Positions 5,714-48,205 of a stretch of 64,000 bases of DNA are shown here, piece after piece. The notes under the pieces were generated by a model. That model did not search any database and had not been told where the DNA came from. It was given only the letters and a program-made list of their open reading frames with translations. The stretch covers positions 1-64,000 of the forward strand of contig JAGFXR010000006.1 of the NCBI GenBank assembly GCA_017861365.1, written 5' to 3'. The translations under genes and the position numbers were made by a program. The DNA is from Oscillospiraceae bacterium (lineage in GTDB: Bacteria; Bacillota; Clostridia; Oscillospirales; Oscillospiraceae). Numbering within the stretch: position 1 is the stretch's first letter; each line of letters opens with the position of its first letter.

Positions 5714-5736
5714 CCGCCGCCGCTCTTTTGATCCGT

Positions 5737-5777
5737 CTGAAACCCCCGCTCCGTAGAGTGAGGGTTTTCAGTTTGTT
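5737..5777 (+). terminator. terminator-like hairpin after the kinase gene
   Basis: CTGAAACCC pairs with GGGTTTTCAG and an inner CGCTC/GAGTG stem closes a CGTA loop. TTTG-TTT follows. It lies between the kinase stop and apbE, so apbE may have its own promoter or depend on readthrough. Confidence 0.55.
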
Positions 5778-5856
5778 TACAATTGAAGTCGATTTTCTCA
5801 TCTCACTTTCATGTTCAGCCGGTAAGCTTGAACTGTCCTCAGGAGGTGAGTTTTTC

Positions 5857-6789
5857 ATGACTCGATCAATACAAAAGTCGTTTCACGCACTGGGAACCGT
5901 GAACACGATCACAGTCTATCGTCCGTCGGACGAAACCGCGCTGAACCAAGCGGCCCGGCGAGTCTTGGAGCTGGACGACCGCCTTTCCGTGTTTAAGGCC
6001 AGCAGTGAGATCTCCCAGCTCAACGCTTCGGCCGGTCATAACTTTGTCCCTGTCAGCCCCGACACCCTAACCCTGCTGAAAACCGCAAAAAGGGTTTCCA
6101 TCCTGTCCAACGGCGCTTTTTCCGTTACCTCCCGCCCCTTGACGGCACTTTGGGCCATTAGGACATCACACAGCACCATACCGGATGGCATGGAGATTGA
6201 ACAAGCAAGGAAGCTTGTTGGGGATCGGGATCTGATTCTGGACGAATCAGGCTGCCGTGCGATGCTGAACCGGCGGGAACAGGCCGTCGATCTGGGCGGC
6301 ATTGCCAAAGGGTTCGCCGCTGATGAAGCGCGCCGCATCCTGAAGGAGGGCGAAGTGATCGACGCGATCATCAATCTGGGCGGCACGGTGATCGTGATGG
6401 GAACGCCAAAAACGGTTGGCATCCAGCACCCCGGAAAGAGCACGGGAATTCCAATGGGTCAGCTGCGCATTCAAAACCAGGCGGTTGTGACCTCCGGAAG
6501 CTATGAACGGTTCTCGGAAGCAGGAGGGATTCTCCATCACCATATCTTGGACCCTGAAACAGGAGCATCAGCCGCCTCTGGACTTTGCAGCGTGACGGTC
6601 ATCGGGACTTGTGCAATGGAGCTGGACGCGCTGTCCACCGCCATGTTCGTGATGGGAATGGAACAGGGAGCCCAACTGGCAAAGCAGTTTGGCGCGGAGA
6701 CCATTTTCGTAACCGAACGGATGGACGTGCTTTGCTCACCCGCGCTGCGGGAGCTGTTTTCTCTCCATCCTGCCTATACGAACAACTGA
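5857..6789 (+). CDS. apbE: FAD:protein FMN transferase
   Basis: Attaches FMN from FAD through a phosphoester bond to a threonine or serine in the S/T-G-A-T motif of exported or membrane flavoproteins. The 310-residue protein carries the family signatures DLGGIAKGFAADEARR, NLGGTVIVMG and the C-terminal LDALSTAMFVMG. The start at 5857 is set by AGGAGGTGAG seven bases upstream; an upstream in-frame extension to 5728 has no ribosome site. I see no clear lipobox. The next gene encodes two FMN_bind domains each with DTVSGAT, the exact acceptor motif, so the two almost certainly work together. Confidence 0.93.
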   Translation: MTRSIQKSFHALGTVNTITVYRPSDETALNQAARRVLELDDRLSVFKASSEISQLNASAGHNFVPVSPDTLTLLKTAKRVSILSNGAFSVTSRPLTALWAIRTSHSTIPDGMEIEQARKLVGDRDLILDESGCRAMLNRREQAVDLGGIAKGFAADEARRILKEGEVIDAIINLGGTVIVMGTPKTVGIQHPGKSTGIPMGQLRIQNQAVVTSGSYERFSEAGGILHHHILDPETGASAASGLCSVTVIGTCAMELDALSTAMFVMGMEQGAQLAKQFGAETIFVTERMDVLCSPALRELFSLHPAYTNN

Positions 6790-6840
6790 ACAATCGCGCC
6801 GTCAATCGGCTTTGAGGGCCTGCTTCAGCGGTTGTGCGGC

Positions 6841-6872
6841 AAGGTGCTTGTGGTAAAAGCCGCAAACACCTT
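6841..6872. repeat. intergenic imperfect hairpin between apbE and the FMN-binding protein gene
   Basis: AAGGTG/CACCTT with inner TTG/CAA and GG/CC pairs around TAAAAG. No U-tract follows (GTTATAT), so it looks more like an mRNA processing or stabilising hairpin than a terminator. Confidence 0.4.
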
Positions 6873-6930
6873 GTTATATAAAAATAGTATTTTTTAAATG
6901 AATATGATAAAAACGCGAGGTAGTATTGAA

Positions 6931-8559
6931 ATGCAAGTAAAACGAAACAAACAATCCAAATTGGGTACCGCAAGGCACATTATTCAATTTGTAGCTTTTC
7001 TGCTCTTTCCTGGTCTGTTCATTTCCGCATTCTCGGCCTTAAAGGAACTGTGTATCTCCTGGGCTGACGGCAGCTTCGACGGGGCAGCTCTTTCTCAGCA
7101 GCTGATCCTGGCGGGAGCCGTCCTGCTGATCACCGCGTTGATGGGGCGGTTTTTCTGCGGCTTTCTGTGTTCCTTCGGCGCAATGGGAGATTTGCTCTGG
7201 TTTGCCGGAAAAAAGCTGAAATTGCCCCGCCCGAACATCACCGAATCGGCGGACCGCCTGCTTAAGCTGCTGAAATATGCGGTACTCCTGGGGATTGTGG
7301 CTTTTGTGTGGACCGGACTCGCGGCTGTCGACAGCCTCTGGAATCCTTGGACCATTTTCGGTATGTACGCATCCGTCAAGGGCTGGCCGGCGGTCAGTTA
7401 TCTGATATCCGTGGGCGGATTGCTGCTGTTGCTGATCATCATCGGCTCCTTTTTCGTTGAGCGCCCCTTCTGCCGTTACTTATGCCCGTTGGGGGCAATT
7501 TTCGCAGTTATTTCCCGCGTCCGGCTGTTTCGAATTAAAAAACCCGGCGGGCAGTGCGGGTCATGCCGCGCCTGCACGACGAAATGTGTGATGGGTATCC
7601 CCCTCTACCGCAGCAACGAGGTAACCTCCGGTGAGTGCATCCACTGCTTCTGCTGTGTTCACGCCTGTCCCCGGAATAATGTATCGGCAAATCCCGCGCC
7701 CGCTGTGGCAACCGTGATGACGGTGGGCGCGCTGACCGGCCTGTACTACGCCGGAAGTCTGTCCGTGAGCAGTGCGGCGGAAGCTTTTTCCGCTTCCGCG
7801 TCCACGGAATCGGCGGTGACGCAGGCGGCTGAAACCGGACGGTATACCGACGGCGTATACACCGGAAGCGCGGACGGTTACCGGGGCACCACGCAGGTCA
7901 GTGTCACCGTGGAAAACGGAGTAATGACTGATATTGAGGTTTTGTCCTATGGCGATGATGAGGAATTTTTCGTTAAGGCCGAAAGTGCCGTGATCGCCGA
8001 TATTCTGGAATCCCAGAGCACGGATGTTGATACGGTGTCTGGCGCAACCTTCAGCAGCAACGGTATCATAAACGCGGTGGCGGACGCCCTCTCCTCTGCC
8101 GGAACCGATACCCCAACTGACACGGACACCAGCCTTTCCCCAGAGATACAAACAGGTACGGATGGCGATGACAGCGCATCCTCGCAGGCATCATCCTCAG
8201 CCGACAGCGGTGCGTCAGAAGACAGCCTCGGGCTGTCGGATGGCGTTTATACCGGCTCAGGTACGGGCTTTCGCGGAACCACCAGCGTCTCTGTGACCAT
8301 TTCTGATGGAGCCATCGCCGATATTACAATCGTCTCCTACCAGGACGATGAGCCCTATTTTATCCGCGCAGAAAGCGCGGTGGTTTCCGAGATCATTTCA
8401 GCCCAGTCTGTCGACGTGGATACCGTGTCCGGCGCAACCTTCAGCAGCAACGGTATTTTAGAAGCTGTCGCCAATGCTTTGGGACTTGATTTCACCAATC
8501 CCAACAGCACCTTGTCAACCGGCGGGCATGGGGGGCGTTCCTCAAACGCAAGGTCGTGA
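6931..8559 (+). CDS. membrane 4Fe-4S protein with two C-terminal FMN-binding domains (NosR/NapH/RnfG-like)
   Basis: A 542-residue electron-transfer protein. The N-terminal half has five or six membrane helices and a NapH-like domain with cysteine motifs CRYLCPLGA, CGSCRACTTKC and CIHCFCCVHACP, enough for two [4Fe-4S] clusters. The C-terminal half has two near-duplicate FMN_bind domains (about residues 305-390 and 430-520), each starting DGVYTGS and ending DTVSGATFSSNGI, with the flavinylation motif D-x-x-S-G-A-T. A Ser/Thr/Asp-rich linker joins them. With apbE just upstream this fits flavin-based electron transport across the membrane to an outside acceptor. I chose the ATG at 6931, after GCGAGG; a start at 6898 is possible. 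Which side the flavins face is inferred from family knowledge. Confidence 0.88.
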   Translation: MQVKRNKQSKLGTARHIIQFVAFLLFPGLFISAFSALKELCISWADGSFDGAALSQQLILAGAVLLITALMGRFFCGFLCSFGAMGDLLWFAGKKLKLPRPNITESADRLLKLLKYAVLLGIVAFVWTGLAAVDSLWNPWTIFGMYASVKGWPAVSYLISVGGLLLLLIIIGSFFVERPFCRYLCPLGAIFAVISRVRLFRIKKPGGQCGSCRACTTKCVMGIPLYRSNEVTSGECIHCFCCVHACPRNNVSANPAPAVATVMTVGALTGLYYAGSLSVSSAAEAFSASASTESAVTQAAETGRYTDGVYTGSADGYRGTTQVSVTVENGVMTDIEVLSYGDDEEFFVKAESAVIADILESQSTDVDTVSGATFSSNGIINAVADALSSAGTDTPTDTDTSLSPEIQTGTDGDDSASSQASSSADSGASEDSLGLSDGVYTGSGTGFRGTTSVSVTISDGAIADITIVSYQDDEPYFIRAESAVVSEIISAQSVDVDTVSGATFSSNGILEAVANALGLDFTNPNSTLSTGGHGGRSSNARS

Positions 8560-8672: not shown

Positions 8673-10154
8673 TTAATGCTCATACCATCCGATAGGGCCG
8701 GTCTCCAGGGCGATATTGACCTGCTTGACCTCCTGATATTCCTCCAGCCCGTGAACGGAGAGCTCGCGCCCGATTCCGCTCATCTTATAACCGCCCCAGG
8801 GCGCCTGATTGAAGGTCGGCTGGCAGCAGTTGATCCAAAGGATACCGGCACGGATTTCCTTCATGACACGGATGGCTTTGGCTCCGTCCTTGGTGCATAC
8901 CGTCCCGGCCAGACCATATTCCGTGTCATTGGCCATCTCAACGGCCTCCGCCTCGGTGTGAAAGGGAACAATGCAGGCAACCGGCCCAAAAATCTCCTCG
9001 CGGACAATGGTCATGTTCTGGGTGCAGTTGTCAAAAATCGTGGGCTTGACGAAAAAGCCTCCGGCACATTCGCCCTCGGTGTATCGGCAGCCGCCTGTCA
9101 CCAGCGTGGCGCCCTCCGCCTTTCCTTTTTCGACGTAGCCCAGCACCTTTTCCATCTGATCCTTGGACACCAGCGGCCCGATATCGGGATTACTCAGTCC
9201 GTTCCCGATGGTCATAGCCTCGGTTTTTGCCTTAAGTTTTTCCACAAACGCGTCATGAATGGTATCCTGTACATAGATTCTGGCACAGGCCGAGCAAACC
9301 TGCCCCTGATTGAAGAAGGTTCCGATCATGGCCCACTCCACCGCACCGTCCAAATCGCAGTCGTCAAAAATAATGTTGGGGGATTTTCCGCCCAGCTCCA
9401 GGCCCACCTTTTTCAGATTCTTCACCGCGTCGGCGGCAATGGATTGCCCCACTTTGGTAGAGCCGGTAAAGGTCACCATATCCACGTCCATGCTGGAGGC
9501 GATGGTGTGCCCCACCGCCCCGCCGGAGCCCAGTACCAGATTCACACTTCCCGCGGGCATCCCCGCCTCGTGAAAAATTTCAAACAGCATGACGGTGGAC
9601 AGCGGGCAGTTGGAACTGGGTTTAAACACCACGCTGTTGCCTGCCGCCAGGGCGGGCGCAAGCTTCCATGTGGACATCAGCAGGGGGTAATTCCACGGCG
9701 TAATCTGCCCGCACACGCCCACCGGCTCGGCCACGGTGTAGGAATGCATGGGTCCAAAACCGTCGTTGACGTCATAGGTCACGCCGCTGGGCGCGGTGAC
9801 CAGCCCCGCGTAGTAGCGGAAGCAATGAATCGCGTCGTCCACGTCCCCTTCCGCCTCTCTCAGGGGCTTTCCGTTATCCAGCGTGTCGGTCTGCGCCAGA
9901 AGCGCCCGCTTCTGATCCATCAGCGCCGCAATGTTCAGCAGCATGTCCGCCCGGGCCTGCCCATTCAGATTCCGCCACTCCCGTGTCACATAAAAGGAGC
10001 GCTTCGCGGAGGCAATGGCGCGGTTGGTGTCCTCCTCGCTGCTGTCGGCGGTGAGGGCAATGATCTCCCCTGTGGCGGGATTTATAACCTCCTGGGTTCT
10101 CCCAGTCACCGATTCCGCCCACGCACCATCAATATAGTTTTTCTTCAACTCCAT
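8673..10154 (-). CDS. NAD(P)-dependent aldehyde dehydrogenase (probable 4-aminobutyraldehyde/betaine-aldehyde type)
   Basis: Oxidises an aldehyde to an acid. The 493-residue protein has the full family set: ITPWNYPLLMSTWKLAPAL, the cofactor motif FTGSTKVG, the general base in ELGGKSPNIIF and the catalytic cysteine in FNQGQVCSACARIY. It is the last gene of the nine-gene operon and follows a putrescine aminotransferase by 14 bases, so 4-aminobutyraldehyde to GABA is the most likely reaction (inference from context). I prefer the ATG at 10154, ten bases after GGGGA; a GTG at 10163 abuts that site. No residues are missing. Confidence 0.92.
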   Translation of the reverse strand: MELKKNYIDGAWAESVTGRTQEVINPATGEIIALTADSSEEDTNRAIASAKRSFYVTREWRNLNGQARADMLLNIAALMDQKRALLAQTDTLDNGKPLREAEGDVDDAIHCFRYYAGLVTAPSGVTYDVNDGFGPMHSYTVAEPVGVCGQITPWNYPLLMSTWKLAPALAAGNSVVFKPSSNCPLSTVMLFEIFHEAGMPAGSVNLVLGSGGAVGHTIASSMDVDMVTFTGSTKVGQSIAADAVKNLKKVGLELGGKSPNIIFDDCDLDGAVEWAMIGTFFNQGQVCSACARIYVQDTIHDAFVEKLKAKTEAMTIGNGLSNPDIGPLVSKDQMEKVLGYVEKGKAEGATLVTGGCRYTEGECAGGFFVKPTIFDNCTQNMTIVREEIFGPVACIVPFHTEAEAVEMANDTEYGLAGTVCTKDGAKAIRVMKEIRAGILWINCCQPTFNQAPWGGYKMSGIGRELSVHGLEEYQEVKQVNIALETGPIGWYEH

Positions 10155-10168
10155 ACAGTCCACTCCCC

Positions 10169-11524
10169 TTACAGATTCATACCGGTCTTGGTATCCGCCA
10201 GAGCTTCCTCCATGCGGGCAATGACCTGATCCAGGCTCTCGTAGCTGATAACCGCCGCAGGCTCAAAGCGGATGCATTTGGAATTGACAAGAGTCCCGGC
10301 GGTCAGCACCCGCCGCGCGAACATGCCCTTGGACACGGAATAACCGATCTCGTCATCGAAAAATTCCACGGCCAGCATCAGCCCGATGCCGCGCACCTCC
10401 TGAATCACGGTGGGATATTTCTTCCACAGCGTTTCCAGTCCGGCCTTCAGGTAAGCGCCCTTCTCCGCGCACTGCCCGGGAATATCGTGCTCCAGCATAT
10501 ATTTAATGGTGGCAAGAGCGGCGGAGCAGGCCAGAGGATTTCCGCCGAAGGTGGGAGAACCCAGCAGCCAGGGGTTGTCAATGAGCTCCTGCACCCACAT
10601 ATGCGGTCTGCAAATAATGCCTGTGATGGGCATGACACCGCCGCCGAAGGCCTTTCCGAAGGCCATGATATCAGGAACCACACCCTCGGTCTCGCAGCGG
10701 AACATAGCTCCCGTTCTGCCCATACCTGTCTGAATCTCGTCAAAAATCAGCGCCACGCCGGTATCATCGCAGATCTGCCGGACTTTTTTCAGATAACCCT
10801 CGGGCGGAATGATAATACCCGCCTCGCCCTGAATGGGCTCCAAAATCACGGCGGCCACCTTCTCGCCCACGGCCTGCAAATTGCGGATAGCCTTCTCCAC
10901 GTCCTCAGCCACGCCGTACTCCACATGCTGCACCTGCTGCACCATGGGGGCGTAGGGGACGCGGTAGCTCCCCTTGCCGCCCATGGAGATCGCGCCCATG
11001 GATTTGCCGTGGAAGGCTCTCACGGTGGAGATAAACCACCGTCCGCCTGTGGCGATTCTGGCCAGCTTCAGTGCCATCTCCACCGCTTCGGCTCCGCCGT
11101 TGGTAAAAAAGCACTTCTCCAGGTCTCCCGGTGTAATCTGAGAAACCGCTTTTGCCAGATACCCTCTGAGGGGATCCAGCAGCTCCTGGGAGTGCAGACA
11201 TTGGTGCTCCATCTGCGCCTTTACCGTTGCGATAATCTCCTGATTGCGGTGTCCGCAGGTGTAAATGCCGAAGCCGCCCAGGCAGTCGATAAACTCCTCG
11301 CCATACAGCCCGCAACAGAACTCATCATGATCCTTCCATTCCACGGTAGCGCCGTTGGTGGACACCGACTTGCGGTACTGAAGCCAGCCGGGGCTGACAT
11401 AATGATCAAAATATTCCACCGTCTCGCGGGTAACCGCCGCCTTCTGCTCATCGGTCAGCGAGTCACTGTGAATGATCTCGAGAATATGATTTAAATCATT
11501 TAGAATGATTTCCTTTGTTTCCAT
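10169..11524 (-). CDS. patA: putrescine aminotransferase (class III, PLP)
   Basis: Transfers an amino group from putrescine (or cadaverine) to 2-oxoglutarate, giving 4-aminobutyraldehyde. The 451-residue protein matches E. coli PatA/YgjG across its length, including EYFDHYVSPGWLQYRKS, EFIDCLGGFGI, LHSQELLDPLRG, FHGKSMGA, ILEPIQGEAG and FDEIQTGMGRTG, with the PLP lysine in AFGKAFGGGVMPI. The N-terminus is also PatA-like, which separates it from ornithine or acetylornithine aminotransferases. It lies between a saccharopine-dehydrogenase-like gene and an aldehyde dehydrogenase in the same operon. Substrate range beyond putrescine is not decidable here. Confidence 0.9.
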   Translation of the reverse strand: METKEIILNDLNHILEIIHSDSLTDEQKAAVTRETVEYFDHYVSPGWLQYRKSVSTNGATVEWKDHDEFCCGLYGEEFIDCLGGFGIYTCGHRNQEIIATVKAQMEHQCLHSQELLDPLRGYLAKAVSQITPGDLEKCFFTNGGAEAVEMALKLARIATGGRWFISTVRAFHGKSMGAISMGGKGSYRVPYAPMVQQVQHVEYGVAEDVEKAIRNLQAVGEKVAAVILEPIQGEAGIIIPPEGYLKKVRQICDDTGVALIFDEIQTGMGRTGAMFRCETEGVVPDIMAFGKAFGGGVMPITGIICRPHMWVQELIDNPWLLGSPTFGGNPLACSAALATIKYMLEHDIPGQCAEKGAYLKAGLETLWKKYPTVIQEVRGIGLMLAVEFFDDEIGYSVSKGMFARRVLTAGTLVNSKCIRFEPAAVISYESLDQVIARMEEALADTKTGMNL

Positions 11525-11565
11525 GCTGCCACCTTGACTTCCTCAATATTTTTTTGCAGCCCTAC

Positions 11566-11594
11566 GAAACGGTGGGAGATACCCCCACCGTTTC
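11566..11594. repeat. intercistronic hairpin in the polyamine uptake/oxidation operon
   Basis: GAAACGGTGGG (11566-11576) pairs with CCCACCGTTTC (11584-11594). No U-tract follows on the operon strand, so it is more likely an mRNA stability or processing element than a terminator. It sits in the 86-base gap before patA. Confidence 0.5.
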
Positions 11595-11610
11595 AGGTAA
11601 GCCCGCCTGG

Positions 11611-12891
11611 TTATACGCCAAACATCTCGTTAAAAATTTCGTCCCGCTGATACTGCTCGTCGTACTCCGAGTCTTTTTCATACAGCGCCGCGGGGAATCC
11701 GTAATCCTTCATCTTGAGCACAAAGGGATCGGGATCAAAGGCCTCGGGTCCAACCACGCCGACGCCCTTCCATATCCCATTTGCAATCAGATCCAGCATT
11801 ACCACCGGGCCTACCGCGGTTTGTGCCACCACGGAGGAGGTGCCAAACTTTTCGATGCAGTCCTGATTGTCGGCAATCTGGTAGATATACACCGAGCGGT
11901 ACAGACCGTTTTTCTTTCCCGTCACCCACGTGCCGGCGCAACCCTTTCCCACCATCACCGTGGCCGTCTCCAGGGGCGAGGGCGCCACCACGCTCAGGAA
12001 ATCACGGGGAGTAATCTCAGAATCACCGATTTCAATCTTTTTATCCGCTTTATCCATTCCCAGGGCTTCCAGATTCTTCAGCATAGTGCGGAATTCCTTG
12101 GAGATGCCGTATTTAAAGGTCACACGCTTGCAGTCGATGTATCTGGGAACCAGCAAGACTTCCTCATGCTCGATATTGACCACTTCAACATTCCCGATGC
12201 CGCCGGGGAAGAAGAAGGTCTCAGGCTCGGAGAAGCACTCTGTGGTAAACCAGCCTCTGTCCTTTTCCCAAATGACGGGCGGATTTAAGCACTCCTCAAT
12301 GGTGGTCCAGATGGAAAAGCCGAAGGAGACTTCCTTGCCGGGGATGATATAGTTATCACCGTCCCGGACGTTGACCTCATAAATCTCGTCAAACAGGTGC
12401 TTCTGGGCGTATTTGGCAAACACGTCGGAAATGCCGGGCTCCACACCGGAGCCTGCCAGCGCCATAATCCCTTTTTTCTTCCATTTTTCATTCTGCTCAA
12501 ATTGGTAATCCCCCAGCTTGACATGGGGCAGCTCATAGGGCTTTTCAGGATGCCGGTGTGAAAGCGTCATAGCACAGTCCATATAACCCACGCCCGCTTC
12601 ATAGGCCGCCTCAAAAATCACCTCATTGTATATGGGCGCTACCACGTTCAGAATGAAATTGATATTATGCTTTTTCACCAAATCTACGATATCCTGCTTG
12701 TTATCCGCGTTGAGTTTTTCCGGGATAAACCGTGAATCACCCACCAGATCCGCCACTTCTTTGGCGCGCTCATAGTTGAAATCCGCCAGAACCAGGGCAT
12801 CCAGCCACTGCCCGCCATGGATTTCCCCGTGCTTAATCAGCATGGCGACGGATTGACCCACGCCGCCCACGCCTATTACTAATAACCTCAT
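11611..12891 (-). CDS. saccharopine dehydrogenase-like NAD(P) enzyme (paralogue 1)
   Basis: A 426-residue member of the saccharopine/carboxynorspermidine dehydrogenase family, which forms or splits a secondary amine between an amino acid and an aldehyde. The N-terminal Rossmann motif is VIGVGGVGQS at residue 5. The middle has GSGVEPGISDVFAKYA, the family's Gly-rich segment, and the end has SVVAQTAVGPVVMLDLI. It resembles the product of 17331-18581 in the same operon and, less closely, the carboxynorspermidine dehydrogenase at 48206. It lies between potC and patA. With an aldehyde-producing transaminase next door it could condense or release 4-aminobutyraldehyde, but no substrate can be assigned. 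Confidence 0.8.
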   Translation of the reverse strand: MRLLVIGVGGVGQSVAMLIKHGEIHGGQWLDALVLADFNYERAKEVADLVGDSRFIPEKLNADNKQDIVDLVKKHNINFILNVVAPIYNEVIFEAAYEAGVGYMDCAMTLSHRHPEKPYELPHVKLGDYQFEQNEKWKKKGIMALAGSGVEPGISDVFAKYAQKHLFDEIYEVNVRDGDNYIIPGKEVSFGFSIWTTIEECLNPPVIWEKDRGWFTTECFSEPETFFFPGGIGNVEVVNIEHEEVLLVPRYIDCKRVTFKYGISKEFRTMLKNLEALGMDKADKKIEIGDSEITPRDFLSVVAPSPLETATVMVGKGCAGTWVTGKKNGLYRSVYIYQIADNQDCIEKFGTSSVVAQTAVGPVVMLDLIANGIWKGVGVVGPEAFDPDPFVLKMKDYGFPAALYEKDSEYDEQYQRDEIFNEMFGV

Positions 12892-12953
12892 GATAATTCC
12901 TCCAAATTTTTAATGATTTTTTATTATCAAGAAACTTGTTTTATTAATCCTAT

Positions 12954-13793
12954 TTAACTTTCGGAATTATTGCCTCCCTGTCTTTGTTCCAGCCTATTCT
13001 GAGCAATCTGAGAGATAACCATGATTACAGCCGTTCCCAGAATCATCAAAGTGGACAGTGCATTTACATCCGGAGAGACGCCCTTTTTCACCATCCCCAA
13101 AATTTTCAGCGGCAGGGTGGTGCTGTCCGGCCCAGCGGTGAAAAAGCTGATCACCACGTCATCCAGGGACATGGTAAGCGCCAGCATACCGCCGGAAATG
13201 ACGCCGGGCATAATCATGGGCAGGGTAACTCTCATAAATGTACGGAATTCATTTGCACCTAAGTCTTTTGCGGCCTCCTCAATGGAGCGGTCAAATCCAG
13301 CGACGCGCGACCGCACGGTGATGGCCACAAAAGGCATGGAAAACGTAATGTGGGATACGATGAGGGTGAACATTCCTGTGCTGATGTGAACCGAGGAAAA
13401 AAACACCAGCATAGCGATCCCGAATACGATTTCCGGTATTGCGATGGGTATGTAAAGGGAGTTGCTGACAAGGCTTTTGAGCTTAAACTCAAATTTATAG
13501 AGCCCGACGGCGCACAGTGTCCCCAATACAAGGGAAAACACCGTGGATACTCCCGCTACAATCAACGTGTTTTGGAAGGATTCCATCAGCTGGCGGTTGT
13601 CAAACATTTTGGCATACCACTCAAAGGTAAAGCCTTCAAAAATAATGTTGGTCTTCGAGGTATTAAAGGAAAACGCGATGACCACAGCGATGGGTAAATA
13701 TAAAAACAGGTAAACCAGGCATGCGTACAGCATAGACAGGGGCGCAAAGCCCGCCTTTTCTGATTTCTGCAATTTTTTGGTGTCCATCTGCAC
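12954..13793 (-). CDS. potC: spermidine/putrescine-type ABC transporter permease PotC
   Basis: Inner-membrane permease of 279 residues with about six hydrophobic helices and the EAA loop SIEEAAKDLGANEFRTFMRVTLPMIMPGV that docks on the ATPase. The C-terminal hydrophilic tail (QNRLEQRQGGN) resembles PotC. It follows potB by seven bases. The family takes up polyamines; close relatives carry other cations, so polyamine specificity rests on the whole operon. Confidence 0.88.
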   Translation of the reverse strand: MQMDTKKLQKSEKAGFAPLSMLYACLVYLFLYLPIAVVIAFSFNTSKTNIIFEGFTFEWYAKMFDNRQLMESFQNTLIVAGVSTVFSLVLGTLCAVGLYKFEFKLKSLVSNSLYIPIAIPEIVFGIAMLVFFSSVHISTGMFTLIVSHITFSMPFVAITVRSRVAGFDRSIEEAAKDLGANEFRTFMRVTLPMIMPGVISGGMLALTMSLDDVVISFFTAGPDSTTLPLKILGMVKKGVSPDVNALSTLMILGTAVIMVISQIAQNRLEQRQGGNNSES

Positions 13794-13800
13794 AACCTCC

Positions 13801-14655
13801 TTAAGCCATGTCCTCCAGGCTGCCGACTTTGGTATAAAGCTTCATTAAAACCAGGGTAATCAAAATCAGCAGCAGGGACAGCGCCGCGCCCAGCGGCCAG
13901 TTTCTGGCGGATAAAAATTGATTTTTAATCAGGTTGCCGATATACATGGTGGACCCGCCGCCCATCATTTCCGAAATATAAAACAGCCCAAGAGATGGGA
14001 TAAAGGTCTGAATGGAGCCTGCAAAGATGCCAGGCATGGTGAGGGGAAAAATCACCCTTGTAAAGATATGCGGTTTGGTTGCCCCCAAATCACTGGCGGC
14101 CTCCAGAAGAGAGCGGTCCAGCTTTTCAATGGACGCGTAGAGGGGAAGTATGGTGAAGGGCAGCAGCTCGTATACCATGCCCAACAGCACGGCGCCGTCC
14201 GTATAAAGCATCTCCAGCGGACTTGAAATAATACCAATGGACATCAGAACGGAGTTAATGACTCCCTCCTGCCGCAGCAGGGTATTCCATCCGTAAATGC
14301 GGATGACGGAATTGATCCAGAACGGCAGCATAATGAGAAGCAGCAGCAGCCCCCTGTGCTTTTTTGGCGCGTTGGCAATCACATAAGCAAAGGGATAACC
14401 CACCGCCAGACAAATGATCGTCGTCTGGAGAGACAAAAGCAGCGACCGGCTGAAGATGGTCAGAAAGCTCTCATTCCATAAGCTGAAGTAGCTGGCCAGC
14501 GTCAGCGGGAACATAACTCCGCCGCTGGAGTCCTTGCTGAGGAAGCTGATGCCCACCACATAGCACAGCGGCGCCAGCACAAAAATCGCCATCCACAAAA
14601 AAGCGGGGCCGATCATGACGAACATGGGCAGCCGGTTGTTCCATTTATGCTTCAT
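13801..14655 (-). CDS. potB: spermidine/putrescine-type ABC transporter permease PotB
   Basis: Permease of 284 residues with six predicted helices. It has the PotB-like segment LPFWINSVIRIYGWNTLLR and the EAA loop SLLEAASDLGATKPHIFTRVIFPLTMPGI. Its start overlaps the end of potA by 11 bases, so the two are translationally coupled. Together with PotC it forms the membrane channel. Confidence 0.9.
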   Translation of the reverse strand: MKHKWNNRLPMFVMIGPAFLWMAIFVLAPLCYVVGISFLSKDSSGGVMFPLTLASYFSLWNESFLTIFSRSLLLSLQTTIICLAVGYPFAYVIANAPKKHRGLLLLLIMLPFWINSVIRIYGWNTLLRQEGVINSVLMSIGIISSPLEMLYTDGAVLLGMVYELLPFTILPLYASIEKLDRSLLEAASDLGATKPHIFTRVIFPLTMPGIFAGSIQTFIPSLGLFYISEMMGGGSTMYIGNLIKNQFLSARNWPLGAALSLLLILITLVLMKLYTKVGSLEDMA

Positions 14656-15784
14656 GCATTCCGCCCTCTATCTGCACCGTATTTTCAATGAGATTATAGA
14701 GCTGCTCCTCCTTGGTGTGAAGGATCACGCCCTGATCCTCCCTCCAATAGATGTTCACCCTGGTTCCTACGGCATAGAGCTCATCCGTCTGGGGTGAGGT
14801 CATTTTCACCTCCAGCCCGCTGGCCAGCTCCACAACGGTTTTGCACACCGAGCCGATAAAGATATGCTCTTTTACCGTGCCGTAAATATTAAAATTCGGA
14901 ACTGCTTCCTTCGTCATTTTCAGGTTTTCAGGGCGGACGCAGAGATATACCATCTCTTCCTCCACAAATCCCCCGGCCTTCAGGACAGCGTCTCCGAATT
15001 CCATCTTGACGTGGATGCCGCCCTCGGATACTTCCGTGACATAGGCGTCGAGCACATTGCTCTCCCCGATGAAATCAGCCACAAATTTTGTCTCCGGACG
15101 ATTGTAAATCTCCCTGGGCGTTCCAATCTGCTCCAGCACGCCGCCATTCATGACGGCGATGCGGTCGCTCATGGTGAGAGCCTCCTCCTGGTCGTGGGTC
15201 ACAAACACAAAGGTGATCCCCAGCCGCTTTTGCAGATGCTTCAGCTCGGACTGCATCTGCTTTCGCAGCTTTAAATCCAGCGCGCCCAAGGGTTCATCCA
15301 GCAACAACACCCTGGGATTATTGATCAGCGCTCTGGCGATGGCAACCCGCTGCTTCTGACCGCCGGACATCTGGGCGGGCATGCGTTTTTCCATGCCCTC
15401 CAGCTGTACCATTTTAATCATTTCCGCAACCCGCTGCTTGATTTCCGATTTTTTCACCCGTTTTTCCACTAAACCAAAGGCGATATTGTCCTCCACCGTC
15501 ATGTGGGGAAACAGGGCATAGTTCTGGAATACGGTGTTGACGTCGCGCTGGTTGGGCTTTAAATCGGCAACATTGTTTCCCTCTAGGTAAATCTGCCCCT
15601 CGGTCACGCTCTCAAAACCGGCAATCATACGCAGGGTGGTAGTTTTCCCGCAGCCGGAGGGCCCCAGAAGCGTTAAAAACTCCCCTTGCTGAATGTCCAG
15701 GTTCAGTTTTTTCACGACCTGATTCTCATGATAGCATTTTACGACATTAACTAATCGAATAATGGGCTCACCCAAGCTGACCAT
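14645..15784 (-). CDS. potA: spermidine/putrescine ABC transporter ATP-binding protein PotA
   Basis: ATPase of 379 residues with Walker A GPSGCGKTT near residue 40, signature MSGGQKQRVAIARAL, Walker B VLLLDEPLGALD, and the C-terminal TOBE-type regulatory region (VYLCVRPENLKM) typical of PotA. The ATG at 15784 directly abuts GGGAG, so the TTG at 15775, nine bases downstream of that site, may be the true start. Neighbours are the P-II gene upstream and potB overlapping downstream. Confidence 0.92.
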   Translation of the reverse strand: MVSLGEPIIRLVNVVKCYHENQVVKKLNLDIQQGEFLTLLGPSGCGKTTTLRMIAGFESVTEGQIYLEGNNVADLKPNQRDVNTVFQNYALFPHMTVEDNIAFGLVEKRVKKSEIKQRVAEMIKMVQLEGMEKRMPAQMSGGQKQRVAIARALINNPRVLLLDEPLGALDLKLRKQMQSELKHLQKRLGITFVFVTHDQEEALTMSDRIAVMNGGVLEQIGTPREIYNRPETKFVADFIGESNVLDAYVTEVSEGGIHVKMEFGDAVLKAGGFVEEEMVYLCVRPENLKMTKEAVPNFNIYGTVKEHIFIGSVCKTVVELASGLEVKMTSPQTDELYAVGTRVNIYWREDQGVILHTKEEQLYNLIENTVQIEGGMHEA

Positions 15785-15792
15785 CTCCCGGC

Positions 15793-16131
15793 TTATAGAG
15801 TTTTCTCTCCGCGCTCGCCTGTCCTGATTCGGATCACGTCCATCACATCGGATACAAAAATTTTCCCGTCGCCCACCGCTCCGGTGGACAGCTGCTGCTG
15901 AAGCTCCTGAATGATGTCCTCCGCGTCCTCGTCCATGACCACGGTCATAATCTGAATCTTGGGCAGGAGGTTAATATCCAGATTGAGCTGCTCAAATTCC
16001 TTTAAGACACCCTTCTGGTGACCGCAGCCCATGGCTGCGGTCACGGTCATGCCGGAGTACTCGTTTTTTGCCAGAATCCGCTTGACAATATCAAGCTTTT
16101 CCGGTCTTGTAATGATTTCAAGCTTCTTCAT
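15793..16131 (-). CDS. P-II family nitrogen regulator
   Basis: A 112-residue trimeric signalling protein. The C-terminal signature GDGKIFVSDVMDVIRIRTGERG is canonical. The T-loop (GCGHQKGVLKEFEQLN) is not like GlnB, lacking the uridylylated tyrosine context, so it belongs to a divergent P-II group that probably binds adenylate nucleotides or 2-oxoglutarate. It sits between potD and potA with gaps of 8-13 bases, which suggests it controls this transporter by direct binding, as other P-II proteins do for AmtB (inference). P-II genes are uncommon beside polyamine transporters. Confidence 0.88.
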   Translation of the reverse strand: MKKLEIITRPEKLDIVKRILAKNEYSGMTVTAAMGCGHQKGVLKEFEQLNLDINLLPKIQIMTVVMDEDAEDIIQELQQQLSTGAVGDGKIFVSDVMDVIRIRTGERGEKTL

Positions 16132-16144
16132 TGCGTACCTCCCA

Positions 16145-17206
16145 TCAGGTTTTCATCTTGGTGAAAATGTCATCATAGTAGGTTGCCGCTTCTCCCACAT
16201 CGGCAATCAGGTTGGCCCGGTCCAGCTCCGCGGTATCCACGTTGCTGCCCTCATTGTCCAAATAGGAGGAGTCCATCAGCTCTTTTGCCGCATCGTTGAG
16301 GCACACACCGGGAAACTCGTCTAAAATCATCTTATACACATCAGCGCGGTGGACGAAATTAATAAACTCCTCCGCATATTCCTTATTCTTCGAATTTGCG
16401 GTAATGACAAAGTTGTCAATTGACTTTTCGCAGGCCTCCGTGGTGTATACCACCTTAATCTGATCGTTTTCCTTAATAGCCTGCCCGGCATCCATATTGT
16501 AAACCAGTCCAACCGCCACCTCGTTGGAGGCCAGCAGAGTTTTGGGGCTGTCGCTGTCATAGGCCTTGATATTGGTCTTGAGCTGATTGAGCCAGTCCAG
16601 CGCGCCCTCGATGGTGGCCTCATCAGTGCTGTTGGGATCCTGCCCCGTCGCCTTCAGCGCCACGGCTGCAAGCTCTCTGGAATCATCCACCACCACAATG
16701 TTGTTTTCCAGCGCGGGATTGAGCAGATCGTTGAAGCTGTTGATGGTGACACCCAGCTCATCGCATTTTTCCTGGTTAATGGCGATCACGGTCAGCGTCG
16801 CCATAAACGGGATGCTGTACTCATTGTCAGGGTCGTAGTCCATTCCCATGGAAGAAGGCGAAATGTTCGTGATATTTTCGATCTTATCCTTGTCAATGGT
16901 CTGAATCATGTTCTTCTCTTTCATGACATCGATCACATAATTACTGGCAACCACCAGGTCATATTGATCGGTACCCCCGGCCTCAAGCTTTGCCAGCATT
17001 TCCTCATTGGAGGAGAAGGTACTCTCCACCACGCGAATGCCTGTTTCCTCCTCAAACTGGTCATAAACCTCCTGAGGAATATACTCCGTCCAGTTGTAGA
17101 TATTCAACACCTTGTCGCCCTCGCCGCTGCTGCTGCCGCCGCATCCGCTCAGCAGAGTGGTGACCAGCAAAACCCCGGCAAGCAAAAATGAAATGTTCTT
17201 TTTCAT
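16145..17206 (-). CDS. potD: polyamine-type substrate-binding lipoprotein PotD
   Basis: Extracytoplasmic binding protein of 353 residues. The lipoprotein signal is MKKNISFLLAGVLLVTTLLSGCGG, with Cys as the lipid site. The mature start LNIYNWTEYIPQEVYDQFEEETG is typical of PotD. The start is at 17206, after GGAG; an upstream open frame to 17323 lacks a signal at its front and overlaps the leader. It is the second gene of the operon, before the P-II gene. The ligand cannot be proved from motifs alone; putrescine or spermidine is likely given PatA in the same operon. Confidence 0.9.
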   Translation of the reverse strand: MKKNISFLLAGVLLVTTLLSGCGGSSSGEGDKVLNIYNWTEYIPQEVYDQFEEETGIRVVESTFSSNEEMLAKLEAGGTDQYDLVVASNYVIDVMKEKNMIQTIDKDKIENITNISPSSMGMDYDPDNEYSIPFMATLTVIAINQEKCDELGVTINSFNDLLNPALENNIVVVDDSRELAAVALKATGQDPNSTDEATIEGALDWLNQLKTNIKAYDSDSPKTLLASNEVAVGLVYNMDAGQAIKENDQIKVVYTTEACEKSIDNFVITANSKNKEYAEEFINFVHRADVYKMILDEFPGVCLNDAAKELMDSSYLDNEGSNVDTAELDRANLIADVGEAATYYDDIFTKMKT

Positions 17207-17330
17207 AATGATATCACACTCCAAAACATGTTGTTGATTTATTTTCTCTTCCCCACGGCTGATATACTCCTGCCGATATGCAAAAGGCAGACAGAAACAT
17301 CCTTGCGACGTCTCTGTCTGCATTCCACTG

Positions 17331-18581
17331 TTAAAGTTCCTGTACCTTCCAGGTAAATCCGCTTTCGTCCATCAGTCTGAGATACGGCTTAGGGTCAAAA
17401 TACTCCGGGGCAAATACACCCTTGTCCTTCCACACACCCGTTCCGATCAGCTCAATGGCCAGCGCCGCGCCGAAGCCTGTCTGCGCCACCACCGCCTGAG
17501 ATCCCCAGACCTCCATAGACATCTGGTTATCAAAGGGCTGGTAAATGAAATATTCCTTGTGCTTTCCGTTTTTTGTTCCGATACAGTGGGCGCCCACCAG
17601 CATCATGCCCTGCATCTCCGCTCCGATATCCTTGGGCTGAGGGGCACAGGCTGCCACCACATCCCGGGGAACCACAGTCACACCGCCAACCTGCGCGGGA
17701 TGAATGCTTCTCAATCCCAGCTTATCCAGCACCTTCAGGGCGGTGACCAGATTGTCATCCAGGCTGATTTTGAAGCTCGCCTTTTTCAAACCGTACCGGG
17801 CCAGATAGCGGGGCAGCGTCACAACCTCCTCATGCTCCACCTTGACCAGCGTATTGACTCCCACGCCCTCGGGCATCAAGAAGGTTTCCTGCCCTGCAAA
17901 GGCCTTTTCCACAAAAAAGCCGCCCTGATCCGCGTCGTACTCAACGTTGGGATTCATCACCTCATCCAACACCGTCCACACGTTGAAACCGAAGGAGATA
18001 TCATCCGGGTCGGCCCCGGGAACGGTCAGATTACCTCCGTCCTTTACATGCACCTCGGTGATCTCATCCAGCAGCTCGGTGGCGGCATATTTGGCAAACA
18101 CGTTCACCACGCCGGGATCAATCCCCATGCAGACAACCGCCATCATTCCCTTTTCCCGCCATGCCTCGTGGCGGTCAAAATGATGCTTGGCCATAGGCTC
18201 TATGTAGCTGTTTTCAATTCCCGGACCGTAGGCCGGTTCATCCATAGGCTCCGACCAGGTGCCCATGTTTCCGTAATTCGCCCCCGCCTCGAAGGCTGCG
18301 TCGAAAATCGTCTTTGACGCAAACGGCGGCGCTGCATCCATCACAAAGTCAATTTGGTGCTTTTGCATTAGGTTTACCAGTTCAGCTTGATTTGTGGCGT
18401 CCGCTCTCGCCGCCGCAAACCGTTCGTCTCCCTTGAGCTTCTCCACCACCTCTTCCGCCCGCTTCAGGTCGTAATCGCACACCAGAACCTCGCTTAGCCA
18501 TGACCGCCCCGGATCTCTTACCCGCAGAACCTTGAGAATACTCTCTCCGACTGCACCTGCTCCAACCAACATCATACGCAT
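17331..18581 (-). CDS. saccharopine dehydrogenase-like NAD(P) enzyme (paralogue 2), first gene of the operon
   Basis: A 416-residue saccharopine/carboxynorspermidine dehydrogenase-family enzyme with the Rossmann motif MLVGAGAVGES at the N-terminus, GIDPGVVNVFAKYAATEL in the middle and AVVAQTGFGAALAIELIGTG near the end. It aligns with paralogue 1 over its length but has its own substrate-region residues. I place the start at 18581, ten bases after GGAGG; GTG at 18584 is an alternative. It is the gene immediately downstream of the tandem glycine riboswitch, so its product may use or make glycine or a glycine adduct (inference). It is not saccharopine dehydrogenase proper by any motif I can name. 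Confidence 0.8.
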   Translation of the reverse strand: MRMMLVGAGAVGESILKVLRVRDPGRSWLSEVLVCDYDLKRAEEVVEKLKGDERFAAARADATNQAELVNLMQKHQIDFVMDAAPPFASKTIFDAAFEAGANYGNMGTWSEPMDEPAYGPGIENSYIEPMAKHHFDRHEAWREKGMMAVVCMGIDPGVVNVFAKYAATELLDEITEVHVKDGGNLTVPGADPDDISFGFNVWTVLDEVMNPNVEYDADQGGFFVEKAFAGQETFLMPEGVGVNTLVKVEHEEVVTLPRYLARYGLKKASFKISLDDNLVTALKVLDKLGLRSIHPAQVGGVTVVPRDVVAACAPQPKDIGAEMQGMMLVGAHCIGTKNGKHKEYFIYQPFDNQMSMEVWGSQAVVAQTGFGAALAIELIGTGVWKDKGVFAPEYFDPKPYLRLMDESGFTWKVQEL

Positions 18582-18616
18582 CACAATAGAACCTCCAAAA
18601 TGAAATTTTAATTTCA

Positions 18617-18789
18617 TTCTTTGTCCTTTTGCCTGTTGGTTATAGCCTCATAGGCGATGCCTTCCGCCCCCTTGCGTCAGCACTCTCTCCAAAGAACCGT
18701 CCCGCTGCCTTCCTTTTGCCTGTCAGTTTCACCAGAAAAGATTCTGATTTGCTTCTTCGGCCCCATACTTGATGGCGTCTAGGGCAGCG
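18617..18789 (-). promoter_or_regulatory. tandem glycine riboswitch
   Basis: Two aptamers are transcribed on the minus strand. Aptamer 1 is closed by CGCUGCC/GGCAGCG (18783-18789 with its partner near 18704-18710) and contains CCGAAGAAGCAA and the invariant CAGGCAAAAGGA. After a linker of about six bases, aptamer 2 is closed by UUCUUUG/CAAAGAA (3' arm 18617-18623) and contains GGAGAGAG and CAGGCAAAAGGAC. The conserved cores and short linker match the known tandem glycine class. The 34 bases to the start codon of 17331-18581 hold an AU-rich hairpin (AAUGAAAU/AUUUCAUU) beside GGAGG that competes with the last aptamer stem and may be the expression platform. Confidence 0.92.
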
Positions 18790-18826
18790 ATCATTCGTCG
18801 TTATTTGATTGTTCGTTGTTTCCAAC

Positions 18827-18854
18827 TTGCATTTATTATAAACCCTGGTATAAT
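18827..18854 (+). promoter_or_regulatory. promoter of the MerR-family gene
   Basis: TTGCAT (18827-18832), 16-base spacer, TATAAT (18849-18854). Its -10 lies inside the spacer of the opposing operon promoter, so the two cannot be used at once. Confidence 0.65.
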
Positions 18855-18865
18855 ACTAAGGTCAA
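18835..18865 (-). promoter_or_regulatory. MerR-type promoter of the polyamine uptake/oxidation operon (19-base spacer)
   Basis: On the minus strand TTGACC (18860-18865) and TATAAT (18835-18840) are separated by 19 bases. This overlong spacer is the hallmark of promoters activated by MerR-family proteins, and a MerR gene is divergent here. The predicted start is about 40 bases upstream of the glycine riboswitch. Confidence 0.7.
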
Positions 18866-18896
18866 GCTTTTTTTCAATTTTAGGAGGAATGGACAA

Positions 18897-19748
18897 ATGC
18901 CCCCAAAGAAAAAACACCTTAAAATCAACGAGGTGTCCAAATTATACGGCATCGGGCTGGATTCTCTCCGCTATTATGAGGAGATCGGGCTGCTGATTCC
19001 ACAGCGCGGAGAACAGAATCATTACCGGTATTACAGCCATAGGGATCTGATGAAGCTCAACCTCATCCGGGAACTGCGGGAGCTGCATTTTTCCTTTAAG
19101 CAGATTCAGGACATGCTGGGAAAACGCAGTCTTGCCACTACCCTGGAGATTTTATCCCGCGAGGTGACCCATCTGAAACAGGAAATCAGCAAGCTGCAAT
19201 ATTCTTTGGACACCACGCGCTACCGCATTGACGGCATTCAAAAGGCGCTTTCCGATATCAACTACCATGAGATTTTCATACGGGAGGAGTCAGAGCGAAA
19301 TTGTCTGCATATCGCGTCAGGGGACATCAGTCAGGACGAAATAGACTATTACCTGATTCATTTTATCAAAAACGGCGGCTGCTCTCTGGCGGACACCATC
19401 GGTCGTTCCGACGGTTATCGGCTGGATCCGTCTTCGCCCGCCGAGGATGGAGGCTGCGCAACCCGTGAGGTATTCATTGTCAACAAAACCTTTAGCGTCC
19501 CGGTGAGCTTTGTGCTTCCCGCCGGAAACTATCTCACCGTAGCTTACAGCGGAGGAAGCTCTCAATCCGGAATCTGGAGCAAAAAGCTGTTCGAATTTGC
19601 CAGTGAGCATCATTTGACATTGGAGGGCGATCTCTTTGAATTTTGCATCATTGATTATTATGAAACAGACCTGGCAGCCGAGTTTTTGACCCACATACAA
19701 ATTAAAATCGCGGATCAGCCCGTTCAGGCACCCACACCCGATACCTGA
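18897..19748 (+). CDS. MerR-family regulator with C-terminal effector-binding domain
   Basis: A 283-residue activator of the BmrR/BltR type. The N-terminal winged helix has KINEVSKLYGIGLDSLRYYEEIGLL and the family wing NHYRYYSHRDL. A coiled-coil dimer helix follows (about residues 75-120), and then a GyrI-like effector domain (FVLPAGNYLTVAYSGG). The start is fixed by AGGAGG eight bases before the ATG at 18897. It is divergent from the uptake/oxidation operon, whose promoter has the MerR-type 19-base spacer, so it likely activates that operon; a polyamine or aldehyde effector is inferred. Its 3' end overlaps the sirtuin gene by 25 bases. Confidence 0.88.
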   Translation: MPPKKKHLKINEVSKLYGIGLDSLRYYEEIGLLIPQRGEQNHYRYYSHRDLMKLNLIRELRELHFSFKQIQDMLGKRSLATTLEILSREVTHLKQEISKLQYSLDTTRYRIDGIQKALSDINYHEIFIREESERNCLHIASGDISQDEIDYYLIHFIKNGGCSLADTIGRSDGYRLDPSSPAEDGGCATREVFIVNKTFSVPVSFVLPAGNYLTVAYSGGSSQSGIWSKKLFEFASEHHLTLEGDLFEFCIIDYYETDLAAEFLTHIQIKIADQPVQAPTPDT

Positions 19749-44682: not shown

Positions 44683-45067
44683 TGTATGGAAACGACCCTC
44701 CGCGTAGAGTCTCCGTGCAAACGTTTTTGGATCACCGTCAACGATGACGGTCAAGGCCATACGGACAGCCGGGTCCACTGCCGACGGCAGCCTTTCCGCT
44801 GCCATTATTGATGTGGGTGTAACGCTCAAATTTTATAAGTTGGTTACTTCATAACCGGTGCGCCCTGCGCACATACTTGTGAAACGGTCAATAAGAGTAG
44901 TAAAAGTAAAATGTTTGCTATATAGACTCTAAAACGCCTGGATTTGTTTTTGTATATCATCACTGGACTGCAAGAAACACTCGAACTGCGGGTATTTCTG
45001 TTTTCCTGTCCAAATATATCAGAAACGAACGCAAGTAATGGGCTTATGCTCAATTACTTGCGTTTTT
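44683..45067 (+). promoter_or_regulatory. long structured leader RNA with terminator upstream of speD (candidate riboswitch/attenuator)
   Basis: The predicted 385-base leader begins with GUAUGG (44684-44689), which pairs with CCAUAC (44757-44762) to enclose AAACG/CGUUU and ACCGUC/GACGGU hairpins. Then come two mutually exclusive pairings, CUGCC/GGCAG and GGCAGC/GCUGCC (44777-44803), and two more hairpins (near 44841-44855 and 44858-44872). An intrinsic terminator ends the leader 26 bases before speD. UACUUG at 44874-44879 could pair with CAAGUA in the terminator stem as an anti-terminator. No leader peptide with a ribosome site was found. The class is unknown to me. Confidence 0.6.
45029..45067 (+). 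terminator. intrinsic terminator within the speD leader
   Basis: Eleven-base perfect stem 45029-45039 with 45053-45063 followed by TTTTTG. No promoter fits between it and the speD start at 45094, so speD expression should need readthrough. Confidence 0.9.
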
Positions 45068-45093
45068 GATTGCGAATGGGGTGCGATAACACA

Positions 45094-45852
45094 ATGGAAC
45101 AAAAACTGACGCTCTACGGCTTTAACAATCTGACCAAGTCGCTGAGCTTCAATATCTACGACGTCTGCTACGCAAAGAGCCAGCGGGAACAGAAGGACTA
45201 TATTGCCTATATCGACGAGCAGTACAACTCTGAACGCCTGACCGGTATTCTGACCCATGTGGTGGATATGATCGGGGCCAGAACCCTCAGCATTTCCCGG
45301 CAGGACTATGATCCTCAGGGTGCTTCGGTGACGCTGCTCATCGCGGAGGGTACCATGATTCCCATGGGGGACACCATTGTGGCTCATCTGGATAAGAGCC
45401 ATGTGACCGTCCACACCTATCCCGAATACCATCCCGACACCTTCCTTGCCACCTTCCGGGTCGATATCGACGTGGCTACCTGCGGAGAGATCACCCCCCT
45501 CTCCACGCTGGATTACCTGATTGGCTCCTTTGACTCCGATATTATCACTATGGACTACCGCGTCCGGGGCTTTACCCGCGACCTGAAAGGGAAAAAGCTG
45601 TTTATCGACCACGGTATTACCTCCATCCAGGATTATATCGACCAGACAACCCTCAGGAAATACGACGCCGTGGATATTAACGTCTATGAGGCAAATTTGT
45701 TCCATACCAAAATGCTGATCAAAGACCGTCCGCTGCAAAATTACTTGTTCAATGTGGATGAATATGAGCTTCCGCCCCAGACCCGTCTGACGGTTTCCAA
45801 CAGCCTGCGCCGCGAAATGATCGAGATTTTCAGCGGGCGCAACGTCTACTGA
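45094..45852 (+). CDS. speD: S-adenosylmethionine decarboxylase proenzyme (E. coli type)
   Basis: Makes decarboxylated AdoMet, the aminopropyl donor. The 252-residue proenzyme aligns with E. coli SpeD throughout ([26 protein letters not shown]-like [15 protein letters not shown]). Self-cleavage should occur between Lys101 and Ser102 in [13 protein letters not shown], turning the serine into pyruvate. [11 protein letters not shown] and [15 protein letters not shown] are also conserved. The long SpeD form is less usual in Firmicutes than the short one. ATG at 45094 is chosen by homology; ATG at 45076 is in frame. It is the first gene of a five-gene operon behind a terminator-bearing leader. Confidence 0.95.
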
Positions 45853-45863
45853 GGAGCGCCGCC

Positions 45864-47318: not shown

Positions 47319-47320
47319 CG

Positions 47321-48175: not shown

Positions 48176-48205
48176 ATACAACCACACATGAATGGAGAAT
48201 CAAGG

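Follow-up and report, generated by a model that had tools for sequence, protein, structure and literature searches.

A predicted variant glycine-type riboswitch, RF03166, upstream of a dehydrogenase gene and polyamine uptake genes in an Oscillospiraceae bacterium

What does a glycine-like tandem aptamer sense when the genes behind it concern polyamines? The question is raised by a 64,000-nucleotide stretch from an Oscillospiraceae bacterium (GenBank assembly GCA_017861365.1, contig JAGFXR010000006.1, positions 1 to 64,000), hereafter the window, in which a leader RNA on the minus strand (18798-18617) precedes nine co-directional genes; the first encodes a saccharopine dehydrogenase-like protein, here called SDH1. 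A preliminary description of this DNA had proposed that a tandem glycine riboswitch controls these polyamine-type genes. We consider it probable instead that the leader is an orphan riboswitch that turns on an NAD-linked dehydrogenase of polyamine type, that its ligand is not glycine but the SDH1 substrate or a close metabolite, and that uptake and oxidation of the compound follow the pathway proposed below. What can be read directly from the sequences is the RNA family, two altered pocket strands, a recurrent pairing with SDH1 and a terminator layout in most relatives.

The leader matches all 177 positions of the covariance model RF03166 ('glycine-GGAnGA') with 148.4 bits and an E value of 4.2e-32, for a gathering score of 110 bits, and is the single RF03166 match in the window's genome. 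With the plain glycine model RF00504 (cut-off 32 bits), aptamer I reaches 34.7 bits and aptamer II 31.1 bits, just under the cut-off; in this genome, which is 74% complete, RF00504 gave no match beyond these two halves. The tandem glycine-fold aptamer of the preliminary description is thus real, and the covariance-model search advised there does return a strong match, with RF03166 ahead of RF00504. A chance match is ruled out by the E value together with 37 further loci above the cut-off that share the same layout. By sequence, the leader is a member of a rare orphan class of glycine variants, sister to the glycine switch.

Pocket positions were numbered after the V. cholerae RNA of PMC12060979 and anchored on residues named in the excerpt of that paper, according to which the pocket strand carries U80/U81 in aptamer I and C209/U210 in aptamer II. 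In the window, the aptamer I strand is CUGACAGG (18726-18719, minus strand), with A18723 as the U81 equivalent, and the aptamer II strand is CCAACAGG (18639-18632, minus strand), with A18636 as the U210 equivalent. Both strands are altered, so that the canonical CU[CU]UCAGG occurs in neither aptamer, whereas it was found by motif in 30 of 39 loci of related genomes scoring below the cut-off and, by eye, in at least one aptamer of 8 more, L012 being left unread. The changes CUGACAGG and CCAACAGG are common to the window and to the RF03166 members linked to SDH genes. In the excerpt of a review, glycine variants with mutated cores are said to 'reject glycine' (PMC9481103). Because of the variant family, the changed pocket strands and this report, the idea that glycine governs the polyamine-type genes is unsupported, and the leader probably senses another molecule. 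The literature searched yielded neither a ligand for RF03166 nor a tie to saccharopine-type dehydrogenases, the family being named in one paper whose excerpt gives no ligand; the 2017 PNAS paper on variants lies outside this literature and may already hold the pairing.

In order to compare members of the class, 84,980 species genomes were scanned with the exact aptamer II core string, giving 34 loci, of which 33 pass the RF03166 gathering score (L036 is not RF03166). With three extra copies in the same genomes (L089, L098, L099), the window and L002, this makes 38 loci; L101-L104, at 109.5 bits or less, were excluded. The sameness of aptamer II in 33 of the 38 is by construction, owing to the fetch string; free of this bias are aptamer I throughout and both aptamers of the window, L002, L089, L098, L099 and two loci found later. 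Three of the loci come from genome G210, two from G205 and two from G226. Terrisporobacter mayombei also has a member of the class (L045). In 28 of the 38, window counted, SDH1 follows as the next gene, and the other 27 copies are 58-76% identical to the window protein (two of these 27 are incomplete or, like that of L084, were missed by the open reading frame caller and were placed by other searches). Searched for places with an identity to SDH1 of 59% or more, the 33 RF03166 genomes yielded 28; of these, 27 adjoin RF03166, the last being a fragment at the end of a contig, and eight of the genomes have no such place. Both partners are rare. SDH1 was found in 1/391 class genomes (E<=1e-80) and 1/398 phylum genomes (E<=1e-110), and RF03166 above its cut-off in 1/391 class genomes, each time the window's own, and in 2/200 genomes of a family set. 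An SDH1 protein search in two other families gave hits in 3/200 and 5/51 genomes, three of them new, and in two of these three an RF03166 element that scores about 171 bits and is altered alike in its cores lies upstream of SDH1. The survey advised in the preliminary description recovers a pairing of RF03166 with SDH1 and not with the whole operon: among the 38 loci, RF03166 precedes same-strand pot genes in the window only.

In the ten remaining loci, the first gene encodes a CDF-type transporter (six), an amino-acid permease (two), a carboxylesterase or an amidohydrolase (one each), and behind each permease gene stands a more distant member of the SDH family (21% and 24% identity). Position 81 of aptamer I is A in 30/30 loci with an SDH-family gene and in 0/8 without, a contrast that is inflated by the relatedness of the loci. 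The six CDF loci share the aptamer I strand CUAUCAGG, in which U81 is kept.

The features of the locus are as follows.
18835..18865, minus strand: MerR-type promoter, TTGACC-19 bp-TATAAT with the dyad GTATTATAC, a consensus match only.
18617..18798, minus strand: RF03166 tandem aptamer, 148.4 bits, model positions 1-177.
18698..18794, minus strand: aptamer I, RF00504 34.7 bits.
18611..18702, minus strand: aptamer II, RF00504 31.1 bits, below 32.
18592..18620, minus strand: predicted expression platform, in lowest-energy folds a hairpin spanning the 3' strand of the stem that closes aptamer II, beside GGAGG (18596-18592).
17331..18581, minus strand: SDH1, a relative of carboxyspermidine dehydrogenase, probably of NAD type (Pfam Sacchrp_dh domains, AlphaFold2 model, nearest structure 8deb, residues).
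17287..17321, minus strand: 15-bp hairpin followed by CTTTTG, a possible attenuator or terminator (terminator scan).
16145..17206, minus strand: PotD-like polyamine-binding lipoprotein (NF007048 238 bits, below 582; nearest PDB entry E. coli PotD; start placed by reading).
15793..16131, minus strand: P-II-like regulator (PF00543, 98 bits).
14645..15784, minus strand: PotA (TIGR01187, 392.2 against a cut-off of 355.6, passed).
13801..14655, minus strand: PotB (NF007044, 304.9 bits, below the cut-off of 348).
12954..13793, minus strand: PotC (NF007047, 282.9 bits, below the cut-off of 326).
11611..12891, minus strand: SDH2, a second putative NAD-type dehydrogenase, 39% identical to SDH1.
10169..11524, minus strand: putrescine aminotransferase (NF008570, 682.8 against 612, passed; TIGR03372, 493.2, below 658.65).
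8673..10163, minus strand: aldehyde dehydrogenase of betaine- or aminobutyraldehyde type (TIGR01804, 573.9, below 668.6; NF010000, 467.1, below 615).
18816..19748, plus strand: divergent regulator, MerR/GyrI-like, whose start was read as probably near 18897 (PF13411, 62 bits; GyrI-like 21.8, below 26).

Family searches bear out the nine co-directional genes and the kinds to which the preliminary description had assigned them. The transporter subunits besides PotA and the aldehyde dehydrogenase fit their families, yet stay below the equivalog cut-offs. Genes for glycine cleavage or glycine transport were not among the nine.

Which reaction SDH1 catalyzes bears on the nature of the ligand. By sequence, its start is most likely the ATG at 18581 behind GGAGG, as in homologs, and not 18617. 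The AlphaFold2 model (mean pLDDT 91.5) has carboxyspermidine dehydrogenases (CASDHs) as its nearest solved structures, with a TM score of 0.88 and about 24% identity to 8deb; 8h4z is another such structure. According to the excerpt of PMC10413350, the active site of BfCASDH comprises Glu188, His228, Glu229 and Glu230, and NADP is contacted by Ser34-Arg35-Thr36 at the end of beta strand 2. Glu188 and His228-Glu229-Glu230 are kept in 16/16 aligned sequences, SDH1 included. The NADP contact Ser34 is replaced by Asp and Glu183 by Trp in 15/15 SDH1/SDH2 sequences, SDH1 having Asp36-Tyr-Asp at the place of Ser34-Arg35-Thr36; the window's own CASDH keeps the equivalents of Ser34 and Glu183. An Asp at this place usually goes with NAD, and this preference suggests that SDH1 oxidises rather than synthesises. 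Judged from model and residues, SDH1 is most likely an NAD-linked CASDH relative that cleaves a secondary amine oxidatively. A role as the biosynthetic CASDH is ruled out, since another gene of the genome (48188-49408) is CASDH-like and has behind it an nspC-type decarboxylase that scores over its cut-off; SDH1 has no adjoining carboxyspermidine decarboxylase gene, unlike this pair at 48188-50536. On NF043000, SDH1 scores 145.8, SDH2 171 and the CASDH-like gene of the window 421.8 against a cut-off of 800, which does not discriminate here because the CASDH-like gene beside the decarboxylase also falls below it. SDH2 was found at E<=1e-100 in 1/300 family genomes, the window's own.

How would such an RNA switch? 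In 32 of the 38 RF03166 loci (31 with other scan settings) an intrinsic terminator whose 5' arm begins within aptamer II lies no more than 90 bases away; five mononucleotide shuffles, preserving base composition only, gave 1-3 terminators per 38. Since the terminator starts inside aptamer II and a ligand holding the closing stem would prevent termination, the RF03166 leader is most likely, as far as this layout tells, a ligand-ON switch. For the window and L075-L077, the lowest-energy fold predicts pairing between the aptamer II core CCAAC and the initial codons of SDH1, with the ribosome site enclosed. Concerning the promoter, L112 has TTGACT-19-TATAAT with the dyad GGTATTATACC before RF03166-SDH1, beside a divergent MerR gene whose product is 56% identical to the window regulator. 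MerR-activated promoters typically combine a long spacer and a dyad, and the divergent MerR-type regulator probably sets the leader promoter; a second candidate upstream of the window aptamer lies at 18877-18850 (consensus scan). A separate promoter between the aptamer (18617) and the SDH1 start (18581), which the preliminary description had named as a finding that would speak against its proposal, did not appear in consensus scans.

In the mechanism that we propose, binding of a non-glycine ligand would let the aptamer II closing stem form, and this stem would block the terminator in most relatives and free the SDH1 ribosome site in the window. The ligand would most likely be the SDH1 substrate or a close metabolite. 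The compound would enter via PotABCD, SDH1 and SDH2 would carry out an NAD-linked cleavage of its secondary amine, and the diamine released in this way would be handed on to the putrescine aminotransferase and the aldehyde dehydrogenase. One candidate ligand is a carboxylated polyamine, which would join a glycine-like amino-acid head to a polyamine tail. The fallback idea of the preliminary description, a polyamine adduct with an amino-acid part, may still hold, because the gene most constantly tied to RF03166 is a relative of CASDH, whose product is such a compound. The narrower proposal that RF03166 is a carboxylated-polyamine switch, for instance for carboxyspermidine, and turns on SDH1 as an unassigned NAD-linked enzyme family running the CASDH reaction backwards, with the glycine pocket reopened for the side chain, is in our judgement unlikely.

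The polyamine part of this proposal can be compared across genomes. In L110 and L111, PotD-PII-PotA-PotB-PotC orthologs (67-74% identical) are divergent from RF03166-SDH1. L137 carries PotD-PII-PotA-PotB-PotC-SDH2-aldehyde dehydrogenase, the window order without the aminotransferase, with an SDH2 85% identical; in that genome RF03166-SDH1 lies on another contig, and RF03166 is unlisted on the L137 contig. The window PotD keeps 8 of the 12 residues that we take to be the polyamine contacts of E. coli PotD, with the roles that we presume for them, including the acidic Asp168, Glu171 and Asp257. The P-II-like gene between potD and potA has orthologs 72-84% identical at the same place in L110, L111 and L137; a P-II subfamily of pot operons goes by the name PotN, for which a literature search found no paper.

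Several observations weigh against the proposal as a whole. The pot genes are outside riboswitch control in L110 and L111, being divergent, and in L137, being on another contig. Four of the 12 PotD contacts are changed (W229Y, W255S, Y293G, Q327I), and Ser144 of BfCASDH is Val in SDH1. Ten of the 38 loci have another first gene, which a single ligand must explain too, and RF03166 is absent at the SDH1 gene of G1199, one of the three new SDH1 genomes; the gene behind SDH1 there encodes a hydrolase of nitrilase type, similar to N-carbamoylputrescine amidase (90.5 bits against a cut-off of 410). The window is itself among the six RF03166 loci without an aptamer II terminator; its translational switch is a prediction from energy folding, and the fold is not shared by L078 and L091, which are terminator-less too. 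Finally, SDH1 may be cut off from the pot genes by the hairpin at 17321-17287. As this hairpin lies before potD, one uninterrupted transcript is not assured, and the reach of the switch beyond SDH1 is in doubt.

This last point leads to the explanation that the switch acts on SDH1 only and that the genes for the Pot proteins, SDH2, the aminotransferase and the aldehyde dehydrogenase form a neighbouring unit with its own promoter, in which case the polyamine context would tell little about the ligand. The hairpin with CTTTTG, the longest minus-strand stem of the terminator-like sites, and a weak promoter-like site at 17237-17208 fit this explanation, as do the divergent pot genes of L110 and L111 and the fact that, in the loci of the 27 relatives, orthologs of the window pot genes were not recognised as the same-strand next gene downstream of SDH1. 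However, terminator-like sites (12 in 10.5 kb against 11.0 expected by chance) and promoter-like sites (11 in the region against 8.6) are near chance, SDH1 and PotD lie on the same strand with a gap of 124 bases to the likely PotD start, and SDH1 and pot gene groups are associated in three other genomes. We regard a switch restricted to SDH1 as a serious possibility, though one that we would not expect to hold.

If the polyamine context does count, the main alternative is a free polyamine as ligand (putrescine, spermidine or a similar one), which SDH1 would oxidise with NAD. The window supplies PotABCD, putrescine aminotransferase and aldehyde dehydrogenase, the acidic PotD residues named above (with their presumed roles) are retained, and the NAD-linked homospermidine synthase 6y87 is a remote fold relative of SDH1. 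The spermidine riboswitch, a SAM-I variant, offers a precedent: according to the excerpt of PMC10853860 it, too, is an infrequent derivative of a widespread aptamer and is linked with polyamine genes, but it has another fold and is an OFF switch for synthesis genes. Against a free polyamine, all four CASDH active-site residues are kept in SDH1, suggesting that an amino-acid part is still handled, and PotD is without Trp229, Trp255, Tyr293 and Gln327; we thus hold this alternative to be doubtful. Somewhat less credence is given to a ligand that is a toxic by-product unrelated to polyamines, detoxified by SDH1 and moved by CDF- or APC-type transporters, with the pot genes as a local addition. 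This would account for the CDF-type transporter that comes first in six loci and for the permeases that accompany SDH genes in six, but the Pot-PII association in four genomes, window counted, speaks against it. Recruitment of an ordinary glycine riboswitch to polyamine genes, with glycine binding both aptamers and turning the operon on, is very improbable. The fold is kept, aptamer I scores just above the RF00504 cut-off and the genome has no other RF00504 match, yet RF03166 scores far above RF00504, the pocket strands differ in both aptamers where related loci keep the canonical strand, and core-mutated variants are reported, in the excerpt of PMC9481103, to reject glycine.

Taken beside known systems, the window leader does not differ in kind from the RF03166 class: it is full-length, scores above the gathering threshold and has altered cores like the 37 other members. 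With the glycine riboswitch RF00504 (gcvT motif) it shares the tandem aptamers, the closing stems and the overall fold; besides its pocket strands and downstream genes, it differs in a shortened aptamer II arm (GCC-UAUGA-GGC). For the orphan RF03166, the tie to SDH1 in 28 of 38 loci, together with fold and catalytic residues, narrows the chemistry to test, and in the window the genes for uptake, an aminotransferase and an aldehyde dehydrogenase are a further pointer to polyamines. Identification of the ligand could also give an enzyme family its function and define a catabolic route in Clostridia.

CDF-family transporters come first after RF03166 in L079, L080, L082, L083, L086 and L088, and one follows SDH1 in L095; the family identity comes from a scan of the L079 protein and alignment of the others, and the six loci, from uncultured Clostridia genomes, represent few independent events. 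In the alignment these proteins have Phe/Tyr and variable residues where we presume the usual metal ligands to lie, and seem to be without them. They may not be metal carriers, and the CDF-linked RF03166 members may form an export branch. The Lachnospiraceae genome G210 has three RF03166 copies above the cut-off, L113, L114 and L115, whose first genes are a permease with an SDH-family gene, a carboxylesterase and an amidohydrolase, respectively, aptamer I being much diverged in the last two.

Neighbourhoods of further SDH-family paralogs (L133-L147) gave no clear substrate clue except L137. In L142 (1142-6523), an SDH1-like gene (48%) lies beside an amidinotransferase-fold protein (PF19420/PF02274) and, by eye, a permease and an AraC-type regulator, RF03166 being unreported on the contig. 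In L143 (6287-11577) and L144 (4913-11889), from two genomes, three genes of the SDH family lie together with a transporter-like gene and, also by eye, one for a sigma-54-type activator, possibly a separate amine or amino-acid pathway.

Elsewhere in the window, a polyamine synthesis cluster on the plus strand (45070-50536) encodes SpeD, an Orn/Lys/Arg-type decarboxylase, SpeE, the CASDH-like protein and the nspC-type decarboxylase; the Orn/Lys/Arg-type decarboxylase was named by eye and has no NCBIfam match at 1e-25. This cluster resembles the hybrid pathway of Clostridium leptum, as far as the excerpt of PMC11999265 describes it. Upstream of it (44729-50536 with the cluster, plus strand), 26 kb from the RF03166 element, is a match to RF02440 (SpF59, 'ldcC RNA') with 65.1 bits against 37.2. 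At 5728-8559 (plus strand), convergent with the operon, an ApbE-family gene is followed by a gene for a membrane protein with 4Fe-4S and two FMN-binding domains.

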